DNA from: Terebella lapidaria | Lineage: Eukaryota > Annelida > Polychaeta > Terebellida > Terebellidae | DNA: 64,000 nt | Reading direction: 5' to 3' | Assembly: GCA_949152475.1 (NCBI GenBank) | Contig: OX424569.1 | Span: 23,977,950 to 24,041,949 of the forward strand | Part shown: one piece after another, positions 39,929-57,900 of the stretch | Layout of the letters: each line of letters begins with the position of its first letter | Position numbering within the stretch: position 1 is the first letter of the stretch | The notes under the pieces: generated by a model | The model's database searches: none | Seen by the model: the letters and a program-made list of their open reading frames with translations, nothing else | What the model was told of the DNA's origin: nothing | Position numbers and translations under genes: made by a program

Positions 39929-40973
39929 TGTAACGGATCTGGGGGTCAACCGGAGCTGACGGAAAATTCGAGACTGCTGCTACACGGTTAATACGGCTAG
40001 AGGTCTCTGAGGATTGGTAGCGTGGTCTGGAATGGACCTCCAACCGTTTCCGACTGCAATCTGCAACTGCACCTGAAATGTAGATTCCGGTTGCGTTTCC
40101 GCTTCCGGTTCTGCAACTGCTCCGTCAGGTACCGTCTCTGCAACTGCTCCGTTGTTCCCTTCGCCGCAACTGCTCCGTCAGGTATACAGTCTCTGCAACT
40201 GCTCCGATTATTCCGCTTCTTCAACTGCTTCGTTGATTCCGTCTCCGTTTTCTTCTCTGATGATCTGGGTTCTGGATCACCCTCAGACGATATCAGCTTT
40301 ATCTTTACCGACTTGTATATCTTTTCTCCGTATTTCTCTCTTTACCGATTACCATTACTTTATCATTCTCCAAGTTTCTTCAGGAACACGGAAAAATAAC
40401 CCGGATGATGTTTTCAAGTTTATTTTCTAAGTGTACAGTCGGAAGACATAAATTGTAATCATCTGCATGACCTAAGCCGGAGCCCGGGAGTACTCTGCTC
40501 TGGGAGAAGGGTCTGAACAGGTCGACGTCAGGACACCAACTTCACTGATCCTCGCCGGAGCGAGGGCTTTTATAGACCTCAGACCCGGTGTCACGTGACC
40601 AACTGATTGTGACGTCACAGACCGACAAAACACTGATTTTTCCGGAATTTCCAAAAACATGTTAGAACCGATCAGTGGCTGCCACGTCACCTTTTAAACC
40701 GAAAATGAGGCTGATCACATGACCTTTCGGATATTACGTAGTTTGACGTTTTTGTACTCCGGTGTCTCCGGCTCAACCGTCAGGGTGTCTGGCGGTTCCG
40801 TCTAAAAATTATTCTAAGTTCTAAGCCGGAACACCTCTCTAATACCAGTATGAAACTGTATGAACTGTTAAACACATAATACATTTTATTGAACTGTTAT
40901 TCAACCGTAATATCACGAAATAATGTACGAAATACTTCGGGGGAACGGTTGGGAACACCCCAAGTCCGTTACA
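39929..40973 (-). mobile_element. Solo LTR fossil, copy 1
   Basis: A 1,045-base solo long terminal repeat of a Gypsy-like family, in minus orientation. TGTAACGG/CCGTTACA ends are flanked by a 4-bp duplication, ATGG (39925-39928 and 40974-40977). TATAAAA (40568-40574) and AATAAA (40419-40424) lie in order on the minus strand. The part downstream of the TATA box contains many CGGAGCAGTTGCAG-type units. No internal coding region remains, as expected after recombination between two LTRs. An intact duplication suggests moderate age. Confidence 0.8.
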
Positions 40974-41698: not shown

Positions 41699-42120
41699 TT
41701 GGGGCGTACCCAAAAGTTTCCCCTAGGTAATTCTATTAGTGTTTTGTGATATGATGGTTAAATAACCGTTTATTAAAATGTATATGTGTTTAAAGGTTCA
41801 TTCGGTTCCGTATTGATAATATTTAAAAGGTTTTCCGTCTCGGAACTTGGTATATTTGTGATGTTGGTAAAGCCGGAGACGGAGCCGGAGACGGAGACGG
41901 AACCGGAGACGGAGTCGGAACAATGGAGTACAAAAACGTTATGACGTTATTTCCGGAAGGTCAAGTGATCAGCCTCGTTTTCGGTTTAAAAGGTGACGTG
42001 TCAGCCACTGATTGGTTCTAGAGTGTTTTTACACTGCAAATAACCTGGACGCTTGACGCGTTCTGATTTACACGTCATGTGTTAATGACGTGTTCAATCC
42101 TACAATGCACGGGGCGCCTA

Positions 42121-42300
42121 ATTGAACACGAGTGTTCAATACAATGACACATTGTGTTACTGGTGTGTGTTCAAGAAGAAAAACTAACACTTGACGCGTT
42201 CTAGATTACGCGTCTGGTGTCAACTTCGTCTTCACCTACACTCAATTGAACATATGTGTTCGATAGAACCTTGACATGTTCTCAATATTGAATAATTTTA
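42121..42300. promoter_or_regulatory. Left subterminal palindromes of the CMC-type transposon
   Basis: ATTGAACACGAGTGTTCAAT at 42121-42140 has perfect 9-base arms, and weaker relatives follow (TGAACATATGTGTTCG near 42,245). The same motif recurs at 42,772-42,786, 42,805-42,820 and at the right end, so it is a probable binding site for an element-encoded protein. Confidence 0.6.
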
Positions 42301-42472
42301 CATATACGGGCTGATTAGATCTAGGCCTAATGAATAAAGTGATTGCTAACAGTGATTTGAAACAAACAAACTTGTCCCATGAACTAGTCATTAATGATCG
42401 TGCCCTGGGTTACAGCGTTTTATATAATATATATAATATATTTGTGTGTGAAGTCCTATATATTAACATCTC

Positions 42473-42772
42473 AGAGCTTGAACTCTAGCATTGAATCCAT
42501 GGTAACGGTTACCCCCGTACTCAAATGAAGGTTCCTTACGTCACGTCAATGGCAGCACCCACAGCACTGGCTAGAGCTTGAACACTGGCATTGTATCCAT
42601 GGTAACGGTTCTCACCGTACTCAAATGAACGTTCCTTACGTCACGTCATTGGCAGCACCCACAGCACTGGCTAGAGCTTGAACACTGGCATTGTATCCAT
42701 GGTAACGGTTACCACCGACCTCAAATGAACGTTCCTCACGTCACGTCATTGGTGGCACCCACAGTACTGGGA
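42473..42772. repeat. 100-bp tandem repeat, 3 copies
   Basis: Units start at 42473, 42573 and 42673 with an exact 100-base period and 3-12 differences. Each holds TCCATGGTAACGG, close to an RFX X-box half, and a TTACGTCACGTCA or CACGTCACGTCA CRE-like block. It lies about 0.9 kb before the transposase ATG and may be its promoter. Confidence 0.85.
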
Positions 42773-43243
42773 TGAACACCGGTGTTAAAGACATGTCCCC
42801 ATACTGAACACTGGTGTTCATCTATAGTACAAACGACGATGCACGTGCCCATCCTGGCAGCATAGGAACCACCATTTCCGGGGAGCACACACGAGGAAGA
42901 ACTGCTGAACAGAATTGGCTTGTTGAAATCCACGTTAATCTTAGTAATTTTCGGAGAGAGTTCACTGGAAAGTTTACCAAACGAAGCGTTCTTGAACACA
43001 GGTTTCTTGTTTATAGTTAAGTTCCGCACCAAACACGCATAAAGACACAGTTTTGATATGAACTGTGCATACTAGATCTACTCGAGACTACAGTAAATCT
43101 TTGACTTTCGTGCAATAGATTTAGCCTGGGTCAAGAGTTCCAAACTATACTTTATCTTGTTTTCAAAGTCATGCTAATTACGGATAGGCCCTGAAATGGG
43201 TATGACAAAATATATTCGGTTTTGATGTGACTTGTTAGTGCGA

Positions 43244-43475
43244 CTGAACACTCATGTACAAATCCTGAACACCCATGTACAACTCCTGAACACCTGTGCT
43301 CAAATCCTGAACACCCATGTGCAAGCCCTGAACACCTGTGCTCAAATCCTGAATACCCATGTACAACTCCTGAACACCTGTGCTCAAATCCTGAATACCC
43401 ATGTACAACTCCTGAACACCTGTGCTCAAATCCTGAACACCCATGTGCAAGTCCTGAACACCTATGCTTAAAATC
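43244..43475. repeat. 21-bp minisatellite, 11 copies
   Basis: Units of CTGAACACCCATGTACAACT plus one base alternate with CTGAACACCTGTGCTCAAAT plus one, giving a 42-bp higher-order period; the last unit is 22 bases. Each contains TGAACACC, one arm of the subterminal palindrome. Because 21 is divisible by three it is open in several frames on both strands; those frames are not genes. Confidence 0.9.
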
Positions 43476-43680
43476 CTGAACAAACACAAGAACTTTCAAT
43501 AATTCTCCCCACGTCCATATTATACTATTCAAATTTATGCGACACTGACACATAATGTTGATTGTTCAACACACAAAACATGTACAGTCGCTCACAACAT
43601 CTACAGGCTGGACCTTGAGTCTGATTCGTGCTTGAATTCGTATATAACTACACTTAGTCTAGACCTTGTTGTCAGTCAGG

Positions 43681-46133
43681 ATGGATGATAGACAAGAGCA
43701 GTTTCAATGTAACATGTGTGTTTATAACACTAACCTGTTTTCAGATTTTAGAAATCACTACGTGAGACTTCACCAACATGATCCCAAATTTTCCGTCGCA
43801 TGTTGTGTCCCGACTTGTGAATATGTCACCGGAAAATGGGTCAATTTCAAAATGCATTTGTCACGACGCCATAGAAATATTCTTGAAGAGGAAATTTTGT
43901 CTGAAGTGCCTGGTGGAAGTGACGATGATGATGACGGTACCGCTATGGATGCAGGTGGTCCTGAACCTGTTCCCATATTTGATGTCAGCCATTTCAATTC
44001 AATGTACACTGTTTCTTTGGAAGGCAAACATAAGTTATCCGAGGCAGCAGTGAACGGAATAGTCGATTCCACTGCTACTCTGGTGGAGGCCCACATCGAT
44101 GTCTTCAAATCGAAGCTAAAGGAAAAAATGACAAATCTAGGCATGGACAGTCATGTTGTTGACACCATTCCAGTCGAACACTTGCTGTCTGATTTTAATT
44201 CTGCAAGTAAACGGATTGGGAAGTATGAAAAGTGTCTCCCGTACGTCAAACCTGTCGAAGTGATTCTCGGTACCTATTACGTAACCAAAAATGGGATCTT
44301 AGAAGAGAAGTTTCGGTCAGGATACATAATTCCCTTGGTAGAGAGTTTGCAAAACCTCCTTGAAATGCCTGAAGTTTGGCACCACGTACAAATTCCTCAC
44401 TATAGCACAAACGAGTACATGCATGATGTATGCGATGGAGATTTCATCAGAAGTCATCCGATGTATGTTCGGAACCCAAAAGCCTTGCAAGTGGCTTTGA
44501 ACAACGATGACCTGGAAGTGGTGAACCCTATTGGCAGTCATGTTAGGAAGCATAAAGTGACAATTTTCTACTACACCCTCTTGAATATTCCACCTCAATT
44601 CCGTTCTACATTGTCCGCTATTCAGTTAGTTGGAATAGCAAAATCGAAAGATGCAAGACAAAATGATGGAGATAGGAAATTGCTTGCTGACTTCGTCAAA
44701 ACTGTGGACCAGCTTGCAGAAGGCGGAGTACCAATGACACTAGATGGAAACGTCCAAACAATTGAAGGTTCTCTTGTTATTGTTCCAGCTGACACTCTGG
44801 CTGCAAACTGGTTGGGAAGTTCAAAGAAGGGGTGTCTTTTGCTCTGAAAAACTGCAGAGCTTGTGAAGTATCAGGTGATGATATGAGCACCAAATTCGTA
44901 GACAGTCAGTGTCTTCCAAGAAATATCATTTCGCACAGACAAAGGTGTATCGAGCTGAAATCTCTATCAAAACAAGCAAGAGTATACTGGAGCAAACTTT
45001 GGGGTATCAATGGCCAAAGCTACTTGTTGGACATCTCATCTTTTGATATGGTATCAGGACTTGTCCAGGACCCAATGCACATACTGCTGGAAGGGGTTGT
45101 GCCTCATGAACTATCTCCGTTGTTATATGGGTATATCTTCGTTGACAAGTTCTTCTCCCTTCAGTGGTTGAACACAGCATTGAAAGGCTTTCGTTATTCA
45201 TATCTGCACACAAAGAACCGACCTGAAGAAATCACAAAAAGTCACATTGATGGAACATCAAACCTGAAACAGCAGCCACAATGTTGACCATGATCCAGAT
45301 CATTCCCATTGTGTTGGGGTCAAAAGTTCCCCAGGAGGATCCTCGATGGGCCAACTTCATACGTCTTGTGCAGATAGTTCTGCTGTGCACCTCTCCTTAT
45401 GTGACTCTTGAAACTTCCTCTGTTCTCAGAATTCTGATTGCACAGTATCTACATGAATTCAAGAATCTTCATCCCGAGTCACACTTCATCCCCAAAATGC
45501 CTGGTTCATCTCCCGATGCAGATGGTGAAATTTGGGCCTCTCAGGAATCACTGGTGCATGAGGTACGAAGCGAAGAACGGTTTCTTCAAAATGAAAAAAT
45601 ACAAGAACTTCAAAAACATACCCTACTCCATGGCCAAACACCACCAGATCGACATGTGTCATAGACAAGCAGGACAAGGTTGCACAAGGTCAGAAAACTT
45701 CTTGTATGCTGGTGACATCGTCAACGCAGGTACCATTCAAGATGTATCTCGGCTATATCCTCAAATCGTGAACAGGATCAGAGAGTTAACATCCACTGAG
45801 AACTCAGAATTCTACTTGACACAACAAGTCGCCATTCATGGTCTTCTGTATCGAGTGGAGTGTGCATTGGTTCTCTGCTACAGGGAAGCGGTACCTGTCT
45901 TCGTAATCGTGAAGAATGTGCTTGTGTTTGACCATGAGAAGTACTTCATCGTCCAGAAATGTGACACACTCGCACTGAACAAACACACTTTGTACTACAG
46001 CATACGACCGAAGGATGATGTGGATGTGATCTCATTCCATGATCTTCAGTTCAAATGGCCTCTCAGTGTGTACAACTTTGGTGGGAAACACCTCGTGATG
46101 GACTCTTGTGGTCATGCATGTGAACTTTTGTAG
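43681..46133 (+). pseudogene. TNP2-like transposase with N-terminal zinc fingers, ~3 frameshifts
   Basis: Main gene of the 42,032-51,518 transposon. From ATG 43,681 (MDDRQEQFQCNMC) two C2H2-like fingers occupy residues ~9-70 (CNMC...HYVRLH, CCVPTC...HLSRRH), followed by an acidic linker and a long alpha/beta region. Frame 1 runs to ~44,818, then NCRACEVSGDD...QDPMHILLEGVVPHEL continues one frame over to ~45,270. Next comes TMLTMIQIIPIVLGSKVPQEDPRW, then from ~45,500 KFGPLRNHWCMRYEAKNGFFK to the stop at 46,131-46,133. The DPMHILLEGV and W-MR-E-K blocks match wording I know from animal CACTA-type transposases. The breaks look like one- or two-base indels; no splice sites explain them. AATAAA follows at ~46,184. 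Confidence 0.75.
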
Positions 46134-47252
46134 CATGGTAGTATCTGTGTGGCGTACATGGAGAACTGGCGTTGTTTCAGTTGTTAATAAACTGGAGTTC
46201 ATAATTATCTCTTCATTGTCTGTTAATTTGCATGTGTACATGTAGTATAAAAATGTCACTTGATACAGTTAAACCGGCGCACTAGATTGCACATGCGCGA
46301 TATACCGAACAATAGGCAATCATATCCGACATATCTGGTTCAAAATTCAAAAAGTTGCAGGCACGTTTTTGCACATGCCCTCATTTCCTTTCAACAAAAA
46401 TTTTCGTTTTTCTGTTCCCACTATCATGAAATAGCACGTATGATTGATAAATACAATCATTAAAACTTTTTTTTGTATTGCTATTTATATATAATTATAT
46501 TATATATTAGTAAGTTTATTTATGCCCAAATATCAAATTGAATGATCTCGTAAAACGACAAATGTATGATACATTGTATGGTATAAAATTGAAAATGCAA
46601 ACACGGTAACATTATTCATACACTATACATGTATAGTAGTTTATCCTAATGACTTGCTTTGTTTACGATTGATCATAAATCAAAGTCTCATACTATATTC
46701 CAGACACAAGCATGCTTGTACGTATATCCACAAAAACAACTTCTTAAATTTCAAGATTTGGTACCAGAATCATGTGAACATGTACTACGCCATTTGTCAT
46801 CTCGTTTTTTGTTACTACATGTATCTCTTTTAACTGCTTGGCAAGTCTTCATGTTAAATTCTGAACAGTGGTGGTTAGTTGTACAATTTTCGAAGAGTTT
46901 CTCCCTTCGATTGATCCAACACATGTATATAAATTCACGTTTGCTTGAGCCTATATCTTTCTTCACATGAACTATCATCGTTTTAGATAGTATGTTATTT
47001 CTTGTCTGTATATATGTTGCTAATGTACGATACAAGCAAATTTTTTAACATTTCGGTAATAAACATTACCAACACGAAACATGAAGTTCAACAGCATGTT
47101 AATGTTAAAAATATTCACGGAAACTGTGTTCAAGAACGTTTTGAACATTCGGTACAATGCATGTACATATTAGTTAGTGTACATGCATAATATATTTAGC
47201 CATGTCCATAAAGATACATATTTCATGTGTGTATATGTGTCAGACGGGCGAA
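46134..47252. other. Spacer between the two transposon genes
   Basis: AT-rich, with a polyA signal near 46,184 serving the transposase and no recognisable exon. The promoter of the accessory gene should be here, but no distinct motif stands out. Confidence 0.45.
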
Positions 47253-50067
47253 ATGCCTCTGTACAAAGTATGGAACCACGACCGAACAGTGCGAAAGATG
47301 GTCGTTTGTGCGACGTTGAATGACCTGAAAGAGAAAGGTAAACAATTCCATTCACGTAAGTTATTACCATATGCTCTGATACTTCTCGTGTGCCAGGATT
47401 TCTCGTGTATAGTGAAACTGTCTTGTTTTTGCAGGGCTGGTTAAATTGAAGCTGCAATGTACTCCAGAACAACTTAGCATTGTAACCTCCTTGGACAATT
47501 CGGAAGTGGATGACGATGACGTTTTACTTGAAGCCGCTGGGGCCATACTACTCTTCCTGGAGCCAGGGCAGAAATACACTTCCGATGATTCTGTAATCAT
47601 TTTAATCAATTACCACTGTGATTAATTCTTTTGATGAAAAGTACGATCAAGTCAGTGGGGGTATTTCGGAACATAATCAGGGGAACACCGATTCACACTA
47701 TGGGAAAAACACAAGAGGACTAGTCTGTGGGATATTACTATTACCATCATATTATTGTTTCTGTATTTGAAATGCCTTCTATGGAAATATGTCTGCTTGA
47801 ACCAGGGAGAGTCACACCACGACGAAAGAACTCCAACTCGTGCAGCAGTAGCCACTGGGTCCACGATAGAGTCACCATCTTCCCAAGATGTCGGCAGCAC
47901 CCCAGTCAGAACTCCTGGACAGGAAACACACATTCCGGAAACACCACCCACTGGGTTACCGCGGTCAGGTGAGTGTAATCTACAGAAATCCGAAACCATT
48001 CCATTATCATTATTTCATCTATTGCCGCATGTTAATGAGTAATTGTGTGAGTAATTCACTTTCATATCAGATCAAATCTATCAAACAGTGACATATAACG
48101 ATAATGTTGCAGATGCTCTAGCCATTGCTAGAGAGATTGAGCAGGCACCACTACCGCCATTCGACGAGCATGTTCTGAGGATGCTGAAAGACGGTGTACC
48201 AGAGCCTGTGTGGAACAAAATCATAGGACAGAGTGCCATGTATTATTATGGGAAGTGGAAGGGCATCGGCGATTCCTCCCACTATCGTACGATAGGCCAG
48301 AAGATGTATTTTCAATACCCTGGCATTAAACAGGAAGGAAGCAGTCCATGGGTAATATAGCATCGATATTACATGTATCTGCTAATATATATGCTTAAAT
48401 CAACGTATCCTGGACACATGGAACAATATATCAGATCGAATTTTGATGTATAATTATTGATAGGGCCTATCCACTCGATTTCATTGAACGTATTGGATTT
48501 TGAATCCTTGAACAATACACACGTATGCGATATGTACGAAAATTTGACTATATCATGGCCAAAGATCAAAAACTGCATTTCAACTTTGCTGTCGTTTGCC
48601 TGATACGCAATTATCTTTATGCAACCAACCTACCCTCCACGTGTACTTTCAGTCGTTGTTCACGAAAATCTTGTCACAGAAAATACGTCACATGCGACAT
48701 AGTGACAAGAGAAAGAGTCTTGGATCTGCCCCGCAGAAGAAGCTTTTTAAGCCTGTGGATACCATCAACACACCTGGTACACCTGAGACTTCGTCTGATG
48801 AGGATATGGCGAGACATGTGTCGGAGAACCAGACCGAATGGTCGAGGAAGACGAGGAATAACCCCCACTTGAAATTGCTGTTGAAGCAAACAAGACCGGT
48901 GAGAGAGGCCATGCTCAAGGAGGACCACTCAGGTCGAATAAAGCCAATCTTCGACAGATTCCCCTGCTTCGAGGATGGTCTTTACGTATGTACAATGTAT
49001 CCATGTTCACTCTCGACTTGTCATTTAATTCAAATGCACATGAATAGTATGAGTTCCATTGTCTGTGTTCAGATCCTGTTCGAGTTCAGCAACGTCGTGG
49101 GCGCTGCAAAGGTCAAGGAGGTGTCATCCAACCTGAAGACCTTGATGTACGCAACTGAAGCCTTGATGGGTGGTCCAAGTGATTCAACAGTATGTACAGC
49201 ATATTGAAGTAACTCTCAGATAAGTATTTGTTTGGATGTCACGTGTGTACATGCTCATTTGTATATTATTTTTATGTACAGAAGGATCACAACGAACCCT
49301 TGTGGATCTTGCCCTTCATCCGTTACATTGAGGATGAAACAGCATTCCGGAAAGGCCAGAAGTCCATCGTCACAGTGAAACAGGTTTTTATCTGTTCCAA
49401 ATCATATTGTGTCATCCTATTGCAATAATCCTGCAACTGATACTTCCCAAACACCATAGATCCAACATGTTCGAGTTTTGAAGCCTTTGTGTATTCCTAA
49501 TTGAATATCATAAAATCAATGCCCATGTACCATAATAATACCTCATGAATGCACATGTACATTTATCCTTGCTGAAAGCCCTTGCCCAGTCAGGTTTTCT
49601 AGAGATATGGTTATTTCACATTATTGCTATATCGGTCGTTTGTTGCCCTCATGTTATGGAAGTCGTTCGCAGCTAAATTGAATGTCATTGATTTTATTTT
49701 GTAGGATGTGGCAGACACCGAGGTTGGGAAAGCCCTAGACACAGCCGAAAATCAGCCGCCTCACCTCGTCGTACTGACAAGCAGTGATATCGTGAGTGCC
49801 GTCTATATCGTTGGCGACAGAGTCAAAACAAAAGTGTCGATGAACAGCCTGATATGTGGCCTCATTGAATTACTGGCAGTGTACTACGTCTTCGACATAT
49901 CATACCCCAAAATATATTCTATGTTCATGGGGATCATACAATACTTTGTAATGGATGACCCATATAGGGGCGAGACGAGCAAGAAATTCAAATTCTTCGT
50001 CAAAGAAATGAAAGCTGCCATTCGGGCTATACCAAAGGCAGACCAACAAAGTGTTCCAGCTCAATGA
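47253..50067 (+). CDS. CIDE-N-like transposon accessory protein, 8 exons, 533 aa, intact
   Basis: Second gene of the CMC-type transposon; role unknown, perhaps end binding or assembly like plant TNPA. Exons: 47253-47337, 47435-47592, 47806-47968, 48071-48351, 48653-48985, 49073-49189, 49282-49383, 49705-50067. All junctions are GT-AG with matching phases and the joined frame has no stop; the least typical donors are exon 2 (GTAATC) and exon 7 (GTTTTT). Residues 1-78 (YKVWNHDRTVRKMVV, SEVDDDDVLL, LLFLEPGQKY) closely follow the CIDE-N pattern of DFF/CIDE proteins; a related PB1/ubiquitin fold is the alternative. Residues 82-135 are Thr/Pro/Ser-rich. Residues ~150-250 are a compact basic/aromatic region (YYYGKWKGIGDSSHYRTIGQKMYFQYPG). 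The C-terminal ~120 residues (VGKALDTAENQPPHLVVL, YVFDISYPKIYSMFMGIIQ) match wording I know from uncharacterised SAMD3-like proteins of fish transposons. Confidence 0.75.
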
Positions 50068-50108
50068 GATGTCTGTTGCCCGGCATGTACATGTAACCTG
50101 GCAACATA

Positions 50109-50996
50109 CAGGGTGTCCCAAGATAAAGTAGTCCCATGCAAAGTCATATGTGTGAACGGATTGTATGAATGAATCCAACGTATCTGAGGTCATTAAAGTC
50201 CAAATATTTTGGGAACCCATCACCATTACATCAGACTCGAAAGAGAGAACTTAAAGTGTGGAGGTAATAATGGTGTCAGTCGTGAACACTATTTTCCTGT
50301 ATCAGCACCTAACCTGTCATTCTATACGATTGTGATCTGGATAATATGGGCAGTAATGCAACCAACAACAGAACACCGAACATTTTTGTTGTGAAGATAT
50401 ATCTTCATATTAAACCCTTTGCCGGCTGGAGTTGCAATATCTTTTGACCTCTGGCCAACTGGAGTTGCATTTTCTTTGCGTTTTTGAGGCCCATGTATAA
50501 GTCATTGTCATCCTCACCAGAAAGAGGAGGACATTCTGTTTCCCATACAACAATAATCTGCATTTAACACTAAATAATTAGTTTTGTATGAAATGTCAAA
50601 CCCACTGATACCTAAGAATTCTCAAATTAATTCAGACTCTCACGGGTGCCTCCGAAATTAACTCAGCTAGCAAAGGGCCAATGTACGTCAGGAATATTTA
50701 GTATGGAATATCAATGATTAAAGGTTTCACGCATGCGCACTACATAGAAATTGATGGAGAACAGTTACTCCAAACGAACATATCCTTTTCCACATTATTC
50801 TGTAGCCTATAATACATCAATATACACAACTGCTTTGATCTACTTATTGCTACTTGATGATGTACGGTATTCATTGGGTGTCTGTATGGCTTTATTGATA
50901 TTTTACCCACAACTTGGACGATGTAGCATGCTTCTGCTTCTGATGGTTTTGTGTCATCGTTATAAACCAGGGGCTATTTTATCTTGGGACACCCTG
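50109..50996. mobile_element. Mariner-like 888-bp MITE
   Basis: CAGGGTGTCCCAAGATAAA at the left is inverted at the right (TTTATCTTGGGACACCCTG, two bases offset by an insertion), with TA on both sides (50107-50108, 50997-50998). Such ends are typical of Tc1/mariner elements. No transposase frame is left. It landed 42 bases after the stop codon of the accessory gene. Confidence 0.75.
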
Positions 50997-51259
50997 TACA
51001 TATAGGCTAGCGATGAATTATTTACGGCAGTTCGACAATAATATTCGTAGCTGTACATGTAGATAATTCCTGTACACAGATTTTTTTTTTCAGAATAATT
51101 AGATGTGCAACCAATGATACTGAAAACACTGAAAAAAACCAAACAATGTGAATAACTTAGCAACTCTGTTTCATGTCATATTGTGGTAGTATTGTTGAAA
51201 ATTGTGGAGTCAAGTTACCCGACCTTGCTTGGGTTTTGGAATGCATTTGAAATTGTCAC

Positions 51260-51513
51260 CAGTTTTCCTGAACATGCGTGTTCAAATGTTGTGATTTAAC
51301 ATGTATTTTGTGTTCAATAAACGTAACATTGCATTGAACGCCTGACGTGTATTCTTTTTGAACACCTGTGACGTGTTCTGTGAATCATTAACGGAGGGGT
51401 CGCCAGTCTGAACACCAGTGTTCTAATTTCACATTTGAACGCCAGTTACGCGTTCAATAAGTGTAACAACCAAGTGTTCATATAAGTGTTCTAGGATTGA
51501 ACATTTGAATTTA
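51260..51513. promoter_or_regulatory. Right subterminal palindromes of the CMC-type transposon
   Basis: TGAACATGCGTGTTCA at 51269-51284, then further TGAACACC.GTG..GTGTTC and TGAACACCAGTGTTCT copies, mirror the left end. ACGCGTTC words also recur at both ends. Confidence 0.6.
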
Positions 51514-52558
51514 CAGTGTAGAAATCCGGAAAATATCAGTGTTTTGGCGGACTATGACGTCACAATGGTTGGTCACGTGACCCTGGGTCTGAGGTCTATA
51601 AAAGCCCCCGCTTCACAGCGGACGGCGGAGTTGGTGTCCTGACGTCGACCTGTGCAGACCCCTTCTCCCATAGCAGAGTACTCCCTTGCTCCGGCTTGTG
51701 TCATACCAGATGATAGCAGTTAAGTCTTCTGACTGTGCACTTGGAAAATAAACTTCAACCGAGTTGTTTTTCCGTGTTGGTTAGGGAACTGGAATTTATG
51801 ATAAAGTTAGTTCACCGGAAAAGAAAGTAATACGGAGAAAAGGGAGATAAGTCCACAGTCGGTTAAGACCAAGTTGTAACGACGTCTTAGGGTGATCCAA
51901 GAACCCAGATCACCAAGGAAGGAGACGGAGACGGAGGTGGAATTCAACGGAGCAACTACGGAGGCGGTACCGGACGGAGCAGTTGCAGAGACGGGAACGA
52001 CGAAGCAGTTGCAGAGGCGGTACCGGACGACGGAGTAGCAGAGGCAGTACCTGATGGAGCGGTTGCGGCAACCGGAAGTGAGAACACTCCCGAGATTCTC
52101 CATTTCAGGTGCAGTCGCAGGTTGCGGTGAGGCGGAGCCAACCGGAGCAGTTTGCAGTGAGGCGGAACCTGGCAGAGCGGTTGCAGTATTCGGAAACGGC
52201 AACGTTCCCGGATTCTCTATTCCAGGTGCAGTCGCAGTTGCAGTAAGGCGGAAAACGACGGAGCTGTTGCAGTAAAGCGGTATCCCGACGGAGCAGTTGC
52301 AGTACCCGGAGACGGAAACGCCTCCGGATTCTTACTTTACAAGAGCAGTTGCAGATTGACAGTCGGACAACGGTTAAGAGGTCCATTCCAGACCACGCTA
52401 CCAACCTTCAGAGACTTCTAGCCGGAGTTCAACCGTACAGCAGTAGCAGTTTCCCGGAGTTTTACCGTTTCAGCTCCGGTTAAATAACAACTCACCCACC
52501 TCCCTAGAAAACCGGTTCATCAAGACGTCACAGAAGGGTGAAGAACCCGTTACACCAT

Positions 52559-54910: not shown

Positions 54911-57900
54911 GGGGCCGGTCATTATTTACTGGGTGAGGGGGGGGGGGGGGGTGGATGGTTTTTCCGAGAAATGAGTTTTCAAATTTTGACCCCCCCCCCC
55001 CCACCGATATCAAAAAACAATCTATGACACCCCCACCAAGATCCAAAATGAAAGTATGACCCCCCCCCCCCCCCCAATCCTCATTTCTATTGAAACAATT
55101 GTGACTTTTGTCGCAAATTTATGATACTATGAGGTCAGCGAATATTATGATTTATCCTCTTCGTGTAACCACCATTCATTCGCTTCAAGTGTGAATGCCA
55201 TTACAACAATTATTACTTGTAAGCATACTATATATGGGCACTTCATTATGACAGGTGTTAGCCAGACCCTCCCCCCCCCCCCCCACATCTCTATCCAGGA
55301 TCACTTTCCCCCGAATACTAGCATTAGACGTGGAATCAATACCCAGTATTAAGTATTCCGAGCAAACAAAACAGGGTCCGTTCAATATCCAATCTCATAG
55401 TCCGGGGACAGGAAGTCATTTCAGGCATACGAAGTGAGAGAAAACAAAAATGACAGGGAAACTCATGAACCCCCCAAAATGGCCATTAGGAGGTGAAATC
55501 AGGTGTTCCGAAAAGAGTGAGCATTTCCTGCCCCACTAGTGGCACCCGTCATGAATTCCCCAAAATTAACATGAAAATAGATCTAGTTGCATGGCAGACA
55601 TGGATTTGCTGTATCTATCCAAAAGATCATGATGACGTCCATAGAATTTCTTAAACGCAGCTATAAGTCTTGGTAAAACATATCCTTGTGGCAGCAGTTT
55701 AGAGACTAGCTGGGCACTTCGATAGACAAAGTCCTCATATTTGCAACTAGCTCTGGAATAGCGTATAAGTTGAGAAACAAACACACCATATGCCGGTGAC
55801 ATAGGAATGTTGCTGCTTAGAAAAGGAAATTGACTATGGAAAAATTGAAATCATCACGTTTGTCATATAATCTAGTTGATAGGTTAGAATCATTATCAAT
55901 CTCCAACCTCAGGTCTAGATAGTTGGAAAAATTAGTGGAGTCTGTAGTATCTTTAATTTCAAGTTCCTTAGGATATATGAATCCAAATAATCACCAAACT
56001 TGGGATTATTTAGCGACAATACATCATCTATGTATCGGAAAGTGAAATTAAAATTACATGTTAGTTTCTTAGAACCTCCTCGTTGTAAATGTTGGATAAA
56101 ATCTGATTCATATGAGTATAAAAACAGGTCTGCCAATAATGCTGCACAGTTTGTACCCATGGGAATACCAATAGTTTGTTGAAATATTCGACCACCAAAT
56201 TCCACAAAAATATTATCAATCAGAAAATTAACCATATTTACCACATCTATTTCAGTATATTTGTATGGGGCATCAGAGTCGCCTTTAACAAAATAAGCGG
56301 TATTATATTTAACTACAATATAGTGGTACCGACGTTGTCCCTTTTTAGAGAAAAATGAATTATAGATTAGTTTTTTAAGCTGAGACTTCAGTTCAGAATG
56401 AGGTATAGTTATGTACAAAGTGGAGAATTCAAATGTTTTGATAGACGTTACTTTTGAAAGTGTGTGAGCATGTAGATATTCCAATAAAGATTTATAATTT
56501 TTTAATATCCACATTTGGTTTATACCACTTCTAGAATAGATGGTTTTGGAGTATTTTTGGAGACCATGTTTAATTTTAGACAATATAACAGTTAATATTT
56601 TAGAAAGGGCTTTGGTAGAACATGACGCTGAACCTGAAATATATCTTTGTTTGTGTGGATTTTTGTGCAACTTTGGGATCCAATATAAGTTTGGTAGATT
56701 AGAATCTTTACATGGGGTAGTAATACCAAACGAATGCAATACAGACACATGATTTGATAAGATATCCTGTTTGGGCACAGTAATGGCTTGGTATGCACTA
56801 TTGGAATTAGTATTGTTGGCAATACCCAGTTCGTCAAACGGACACTGTATACAGTATGCTTTACAAACAAAAACAGCATTATTAGAAGCTTTATCTGCAG
56901 GGACAATGACGAACCTTTCTTGAAGTTTCAACAAACTATTAGTAACCACGGGATCATTGAAGACAGTGCCAGCGCATTTTCTTTCATGCGCATTTTCTTT
57001 TTCACTACACAGGCCATCGTTTCGGAGCCCACTTGAAACACTCGAGACCTCAAAGATCATTCCGTTGATTCTTTGAAATTTTTGATGGAATGGAAAAAAT
57101 ATATGAAAACCCTCACGGACTAACTGGACACCATAGCGAACTCGCAAAAATACAGGGCTCTTCCACATATCATTGATGAGTGCTCATGGATGAATCAGTG
57201 AATCGGGCCATTCAGAACTGTTTTTTTTCTAGTCTTGAATCCGGTCTGTGTTGGCTCTATGATGAGCTCATAATGTTCTGCCACCATCCGAATCATGTGA
57301 GTCAGATTCACTACCCGAATCATCCGGGCCGATCCAGGACTATTTCGCCATTCTGTGTGGAAAGATCCATGTCTTTTACATGGTGGTTTGTGATAGTCCT
57401 GCGGTTTTTGGGGAATATCCTCAGTGGGGTCATGTGTTGACAAAATTTTGAGTGGAAAACCGGTCTGTGGTTCTGACATGCTAGTTCGGGTTCATCGGAA
57501 GGGATGATATGTTGCTCAGGGTGGTATGGACTGGTTGATCCGTGGTTTGTTTGTGACAGGATCCTGCTGATCTGGGTTCGTCCTTGCTGGCACCGTGTTC
57601 AGCTGTAGTGCTGCTCCGTTAGGTCCAAAGTTGATTCTTGGTGACAATGTTCCAATCTGAAACATATCTGGGCTCAATATTGATACTTGTGGGTAGCCAT
57701 ATAATCATAACATTTCAGATTTACTCCCAGGCAATAGAGCTCACGAGCCAATTGGCTGATGAAAATCTGTATAACAATATTGAAATATGCAAATTGGCTC
57801 CTGAAAATTGTTGAATAGGAGCGAAATAGGAGCCTTTGGCTCGTGGATAAAATTATAGTTTTTAAGCCCTGATGCACACGGTGCGGCATCTCTTGATGTT

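Follow-up and report, generated by a model that had tools for sequence, protein, structure and literature searches.

Does a protein encoded by a transposon in Terebella lapidaria begin with a CIDE-N domain, and what would such a domain do for a transposon? The domain is familiar from apoptotic nucleases and proteins of lipid droplets, and some baculoviruses carry it as well. In the 64,000-nucleotide stretch of contig OX424569.1 that was analyzed (the window), we read an accessory gene of eight exons at 47253-50067 on the plus strand, encoding 519 amino acids with in-frame joins. Its ATG lies at 47253, its stop codon ends at 50067, and every intron runs from GT to AG; the splicing is inferred from these features. 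The accessory gene is open across all eight exons, unlike the neighboring transposase gene. Its exons are the following:

47253..47337, plus strand: accessory exon 1, first part of CIDE-N
47435..47592, plus strand: accessory exon 2, remainder of CIDE-N, to residue 76 at ~47577
47806..47968, plus strand: accessory exon 3, linker rich in Pro/Ser/Thr
48113..48351, plus strand: accessory exon 4, accessory core; C12, C15, and C6 loci match at 40.8-43.5 bits
48653..48985, plus strand: accessory exon 5, basic stretch and core
49073..49189, plus strand: accessory exon 6
49282..49383, plus strand: accessory exon 7
49705..50067, plus strand: accessory exon 8, encoding the conserved C-terminal region and the stop; 13 genome matches including its own

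Exon 1 reads MPLYKVWNHDRTVRKMVVCATLNDLKEK, and exon 2 holds DNSEVDDDD and LLFLEPGQKY. An earlier, sequence-only reading had described this N-terminus by an EVDDDD turn and an LLFLEPGQKY end, both of which are found as written in exon 2, and had likened the first ~78 residues to CIDE-N. Confirming this likeness, residues 4-76 of an 81-aa piece matched Pfam CIDE-N (PF02017) in hmmscan with an E value of 2.7e-12 and 47 bits, against a curated cut-off of 23.5 bits. The whole 519-aa protein matched at 1.3e-10 and 41.6 bits, and the match covers profile positions 4-75 of 76. In searches with E up to 10, the only other Pfam match of the 81-aa piece was FERM_C_FAK1 at 0.084, well below its cut-off, and the whole protein matched no other family. 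The comparison proposed earlier among CIDE-N, PB1, and ubiquitin profiles returned a significant CIDE-N match only; neither PB1 nor ubiquitin matched the piece or the whole protein in Pfam at E up to 10, within the limit that HMMER filters discard most matches above ~0.1. A PB1 origin of the domain was rejected because there was no PB1 match and none of the seven listed PB1 places in the genome lies near an accessory locus. In a phmmer search of PDB (E up to 10), CIDE domains made up 7 of the 11 rows, with DREP2 at 5e-5, CIDE-B at 0.0033, DREP3 at 0.0035, CIDE-A at 0.012, and, more weakly, ICAD at 0.2 and CIDE-3 at 0.37 and 1. All six rows with E below 1 were CIDE domains, and the non-CIDE rows (4 of 11) were importin beta-3 at 1.1-1.2. 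Likeness to these solved domains implies a predicted ubiquitin-like alpha/beta roll for the window CIDE-N. Past residue 76, no nuclease, DFF-C, or CIDE-C part was matched in Pfam. No DNA-binding domain was recognized in the accessory core in Pfam searches of the whole protein and of exon 8, and exon 8 by itself gave only DUF639 at 0.11, below cut-off.

The protein had also been called transposon-encoded, and its gene indeed sits inside a 9,487-bp element with defined ends:

42032..51518, plus strand: CACTA/EnSpm-like transposon, 9,487 bp, inverted termini CACTG[C/T]AAAT, empty-site match
42030..42031, no strand: left target-site duplication TA
51519..51520, no strand: right target-site duplication TA
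43681..46133, plus strand: transposase gene with a C2H2-like N-terminus, reading crosses several frames

The termini are CACTGCAAAT at 42032 and CACTGTAAAT as the inverted right end, so that the element runs CACTG...CAGTG overall, with TA flanking both ends. When joined with one TA, the flanks align as an empty site to the other arm of a surrounding long-inverted-repeat element, and homology to a copy on contig C17 starts at 42030. Together, the flanks and the C17 homology place the transposon at 42032-51518, inserted into another repeat. Our first idea, that the ~0.8-kb inverted repeats at 39948-40739 and 51519-52481 were the transposon ends, was dropped because the joined flanks match the other arm of that element, making the repeats its arms. 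This foldback-like element comprises 39948-40739 and 41944-42031 plus 51519-52481, with the transposon in its right arm, and one 24-mer from it occurs 76 times per strand in the genome. Just past the accessory stop codon, ~0.8 kb within 50107-50998 is enclosed by an inverted repeat of 29 bp (93% complementary, with outer TAs) and is perhaps a nested small element; the alignment with the C17 copy runs through it. The minus strand at 55915-57183 holds a 422-aa reverse transcriptase frame (RVT_1 E 2.9e-4, below cut-off), and a very similar one precedes the C12 accessory gene in L078.

Members of the CACTA/EnSpm superfamily have short inverted ends starting CACT(A/G) and a target duplication of 2-3 bp. 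The window element has CACTG termini and a TA duplication with an empty site. Its transposase moves between frames and so is interrupted in this copy, matching the C17 copy at 97% over query residues 2-386; related transposases are single open frames of 841-874 aa. Among five relatives scanned, L055 (3.7e-5) and L062 (0.0011) matched tnp2 (Transposase_21) and L068 matched DUF4218 (4.7e-4), all below curated cut-offs, and L050 and L058 had no tnp2 match. The window's own transposase pieces matched neither tnp2 nor DUF4218 in Pfam. We call the element CACTA/EnSpm-like, with reserve over the weak tnp2 matches.

When exon 8 was searched against the 761.6-Mb host genome of 438 contigs, 13 places were found, to which the whole protein added C4:29.88M, giving at least 14 core loci, a lower bound. 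The N-terminal regions were read at 13 of the 14, with C12:14.31M judged by match position; seven have CIDE-N, one has a SAM-like half, and none was seen at six. The CIDE-N carriers represent four lineages and one fragment in a fifth. Beside the window, C11:3.81M, C12:14.31M, and C12:14.40M form one near-identical CIDE-N lineage (5.9e-12 at C12:14.40M), and the domain is matched at C2:43.97M (5e-8) and C13:11.85M (6.9e-12); the C4:29.88M fragment (9.8e-5, 22.8 bits) falls slightly below cut-off. Within the domain, the four lineages share 27-41% identity. A transposon-borne CIDE-N, previously noticed at this one locus, recurs in other transposon lineages of the same genome. The distance between accessory exon 8 and the transposase match is 3-7 kb at C11, C2, C6, and the two C12 loci. 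At C13 the transposase match is 15 kb off, with a C-terminal transposase frame nearer, and at C4:29.88M frames resembling transposase were recognized by eye. At the start of exon 1, the C11 copy has an Ile codon in place of ATG. A deletion in the C17:10.89M copy removed the segment 45988-48312, including CIDE-N, and no CIDE-N was found at C15:19.43M, C12:22.36M, C15:26.66M, C4:8.10M, or C17:17.92M in the 2-2.5 kb upstream and the search loci. The window's own domain was not among the four CIDE-N places from a whole-genome Pfam scan, so absence from that scan means little. Viral contigs and phage records that we searched held no relative.

These loci bear on whether the CIDE-N exons belong to the accessory gene. 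They might instead form a separate short gene unspliced to the core, since the exon-2 donor, GTAATC, is not strong and the exon joins are read from the sequence. In C12, C11, and C2, however, the CIDE-N frame continues into a Pro/Ser/Thr-rich stretch resembling window exon 3, and we regard a separate gene as very improbable.

SAM is another head-to-tail polymerizing fold. At C6:38.48M, a SAM-like half occupies the CIDE-N position ahead of an accessory core that matches the window core at 43.5 bits and E 8.7e-12 in a seven-sequence comparison. Its Pfam matches (SAM_Ste50p 0.013, SAM_2 0.031, SAM_1 0.22) are all below cut-offs, and its PDB rows are Sfmbt at 0.011, SARM1 at 0.81, SHANK2 at 0.94 and 0.98, and one non-SAM row, the kinase PEPR1, at 0.8. 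A genome scan with SAM_2 found 58 places, all of them away from the C6 locus, so the SAM-like call depends on weak matches. Fish SAMD3-like proteins and human SAMD3 presumably have the same kind of core, with a SAM/PB1-like N-terminus.

Other candidate relatives of the core were rejected. The peptide downstream of a CIDE-N gene at C4:25.72M (65.7 bits) failed shuffle tests against the core, with 585 of 2000 shuffles scoring as high (187 of 2000 with one left out), so that this gene was not accepted as a further accessory fusion. The gene (L011, L083) has no recognized partner domain, and a related transposase lies ~15 kb away on the opposite strand. The L055 and L062 families likewise failed as the same core, with 296 and 666 of 2000 shuffles as high (31 and 702 of 2000 with one left out). 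Two related transposase families, L055-L057 and L062-L064, each have three near-identical open copies, of 849 and 874 aa, respectively, which suggests recent activity. In the one L055-family copy that was read further, the transposase is followed by a SAM-like half (SAM_1 0.029, below cut-off), and the 1.2 kb upstream of L062 holds the word CAAGGTCA/TGACCTTG seven times, perhaps a different subterminal repeat in the L062 family. A further CIDE-N gene or fragment, L012 at C8:35.22M, scores 38.2 bits, above cut-off.

A host CIDE-N exon pair could have been acquired by chance and have no role in the transposon. Transposons are generally known to pick up host exons, and the window and C17 copies differ too little to reveal selection; over exons 5-8, dN is 0.0074 and dS is 0.0054, and the changes are too few for dN/dS to serve as a test. 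Divergent lineages allowed an ungapped comparison of 27 exon 1 codons among four sequences (window, C12, C2, C13), which makes 162 codon pairs from six pairwise comparisons. Codon positions 1, 2, and 3 agreed in 81, 98, and 55 of 162 cases (50, 60, and 34%), and shuffled codon order gave mean agreements of 28, 28, and 26%. The observed values were reached by 0, 0, and 33 of 2000 shuffles, respectively, and the gap between second and third positions by 0 of 2000. These data show protein-level selection on CIDE-N exon 1 across the four lineages, as judged from codon agreement. With second-position agreement far above both the third position and the shuffled codons in four divergent lineages, a chance acquisition with no role is highly unlikely. 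Gapped protein alignments gave codon position agreements of 44.9, 57.2, and 31.4% over 701 codon pairs, which we rejected as evidence of selection: shuffled codons realigned by the same procedure agreed at 40, 51, and 29%, compared with 50, 61, and 31% observed, and the observed gap of 0.29 was below the control maximum of 0.35. Since the gapped contrast is largely an alignment effect, the claim of selection rests on ungapped exon 1.

The intron between the CIDE-N exons points to where the domain came from. An intron after KG, with a GT donor in phase 1, occurs at the matching place in the window, C12, C13, and C4:25.7M genes, and acceptors of matching phase occur in the window, C12, C11, C2, and C4:25.7M. 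As exceptions, C2 would need GC as its donor, and C13 shows no acceptor at the corresponding position. A host gene, L009/L093, has the same intron place and phase on both sides and reads FYKVWNRDRTVRKAVV at the window's LYKVWNHDRTVRKMVV. It is named DFF45-like from its CIDE-N match (2.5e-23) and a DFF-C match below cut-off (0.0079), and, of the rows compared, DREP2 comes closest to its CIDE-N (35/73). In the host DFF40 gene (3.6e-28), the intron seems to sit at another place and in phase 0. Window exon 1 and the DFF45-like gene have 15 of 27 residues in common and 5 of 27 third positions; by this comparison, it is protein rather than nucleotide sequence that is kept between them. The common intron place and phase indicate that CIDE-N was probably taken from a DFF45-like host gene. 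A CIDE-N tree that left out the complete host DFF45-like domain did not separate the relationships. Adding that domain grouped the window, C12/C11, C2, and C13 at 82/93 with C4:25.7M outside, but by the program's own mark none of the 10 inner branches, this group included, was firm. The simplest reading is probably a single capture from a DFF45-like host gene before the lineages parted.

In two reports on DREP proteins (PMC8647176, PMC6292858), the DREP3 filament sets K122, K132, K145, and K149 against D162, D165, D167, D168, and E170, DREP2 K13D is monomeric, and DFF45 is said to carry acidic interface charges only. In the matched PDB row, DREP3 position 165 is E. Window residues K5, K15, K28, and K32 and D49, E52, D54, D55, and D57 align to these nine interface positions, giving like charge at 9 of 9 in the window, compared with 8 of 9 in C12/C11, 7 of 9 in C4:25.7M, and 4 of 9 in each of C2 and C13, which retain mainly acidic charges. 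From the aligned charges, the window CIDE-N looks able to self-assemble; with 4 of 9, the C2 and C13 domains may not.

An acidic interface also suits a bait for host DFF40/DFF45 that would damp or redirect the apoptotic nuclease where transposition makes breaks. C2 and C13 would then resemble DFF45 as described in those reports, the genome holds both the DFF40 gene and a probable DFF45 gene, exon 1 and its intron place resemble the DFF45-like gene, and for the small CIDE_N proteins of betabaculoviruses a contact with host DFF has been suggested (PMC5245865). We nevertheless consider a bait unlikely, given that CIDE-N is fused to a transposon-specific core, that the window and C12/C11 copies retain both charged faces, and that one lineage has in its place a SAM-like half, from which no DFF binding would be expected.

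The sequence-only reading had further supposed arrayed sites at the transposon ends, and we found GAACACNNGTGTTC palindromes in both subterminal zones, with one 21-bp array:

42124..43469, no strand: left subterminal zone, GAACACNNGTGTTC palindromes and 11 looser sites from 43246 to 43469
51270..51423, no strand: right subterminal zone with two palindromes matching at least 11/12 and a weaker one at 51360

At one mismatch or fewer, GAACACNNGTGTTC occurs 10 times in the window, with 0.13 expected from shuffles; eight of the sites lie in the left subterminal zone, two in the right, and none elsewhere in the window. Looser sites (9 of 12) are split between the element (27 of 53) and its outside (26 of 53), so only the strict count serves as evidence of enrichment. 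In the left array, 11 sites that match at least 9 of 12 follow one another from 43246 in exact 21-bp steps, which correspond to two DNA turns, and the C17 copy holds the same array as 9.3 copies of 42 bp. The C12/C11 elements lack the window's GAACACNNGTGTTC palindrome array, and other words, such as GTGTTTAA, recur there.

En/Spm has TNPD as its transposase, and its subterminal repeats are bound by TNPA, which has little similarity to TNP1 of Tam1 (PMC2613891). We give an even chance to the accessory protein being, by analogy, a TnpA-like end-binding protein that oligomerizes via CIDE-N to pair the transposon ends. By this analogy, the protein would read the GAACACNNGTGTTC subterminal palindromes with its core as the putative DNA-binding part, and CIDE-N would link adjacent molecules head to tail into a coat over the arrays. 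The coated arrays could help draw the two ends together for the transposase. Phasing at 21 bp would place the accessory molecules on one DNA face, an arrangement suited to a head-to-tail polymer. We infer DNA binding by the core, polymerization, and the end-pairing role from these parallels.

With the evidence for the domain sequence equal, CIDE-N might oligomerize for another purpose, such as promoter repression or holding the transposase, with no polymer on the end arrays. Spm TNPA also acts as a regulator (PMC1636069, PMC2613891). Such a purpose would leave the palindromes at two ends and the 21-bp array unaccounted for, and we judge it rather unlikely. For the end-binding reading we count the recurrence of CIDE-N, selection on exon 1, the window charges, the palindromes, and the SAM-like swap at C6. 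Against it we count the absence of a recognized DNA-binding domain, the 4 of 9 charges in C2 and C13, the other repeat words in C12/C11, the 6 of 14 core loci with no CIDE-N seen, the Ile at the C11 start, the intron defects of C2 and C13, and SAM matches below cut-off. A fuller model, in which a CACTA-like lineage pairs its ends by a CIDE-N filament on phased palindromes, the domain was captured once, and its slot takes either CIDE-N or SAM, is possible but tentative.

If the polymer reading is true, it would offer a testable way for animal CACTA elements to join their repeat-rich ends and would link an apoptosis module to transposition. Invertebrate CIDE-N genes without a DFF partner domain could be transposon genes. 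One report lists CIDE-N among the domains enriched in Hydra, and this enrichment might reflect elements like the window transposon. Our literature search found no report of CIDE-N on a transposon among the titles and abstract openings listed.

Compared with known systems, the window domain resembles the CIDE-N of DFF45/DFFA, DFF40, DREP2, DREP3, and CIDE-A/B in its near-full-length, above-cut-off profile match, in the charged faces of the window and C12/C11 copies, and in an intron place and phase as in the host DFF45-like gene. It differs from DFF40, DFF45, and CIDE proteins in that a transposon core is fused to it instead of a matching nuclease, DFF-C, or CIDE-C part. Like maize En/Spm TnpA and Tam1 Tnp1, the accessory protein is the second protein of a CACTA-like element with repeated subterminal sites; the likeness is one of element layout, and its DNA binding is putative. 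SmTRC1 and other animal CACTA elements (TRC) share the 2-bp target duplication and a tnp2-type transposase, weakly matched in the window's relatives, but their ends are CCC rather than CACTG, and the part of the report seen has no CIDE-N (PMC1636069). Betabaculoviruses likewise have CIDE-N in a selfish genome, as in MyunGV#8 ORF38, although these are short proteins, mostly of 91-111 aa (PMC5245865), whereas here the domain is the N-terminus of a 519-aa transposon protein. Beside this viral precedent for CIDE-N, what is new here is an accessory protein of a CACTA-like element with a probably captured CIDE-N oligomerization domain.
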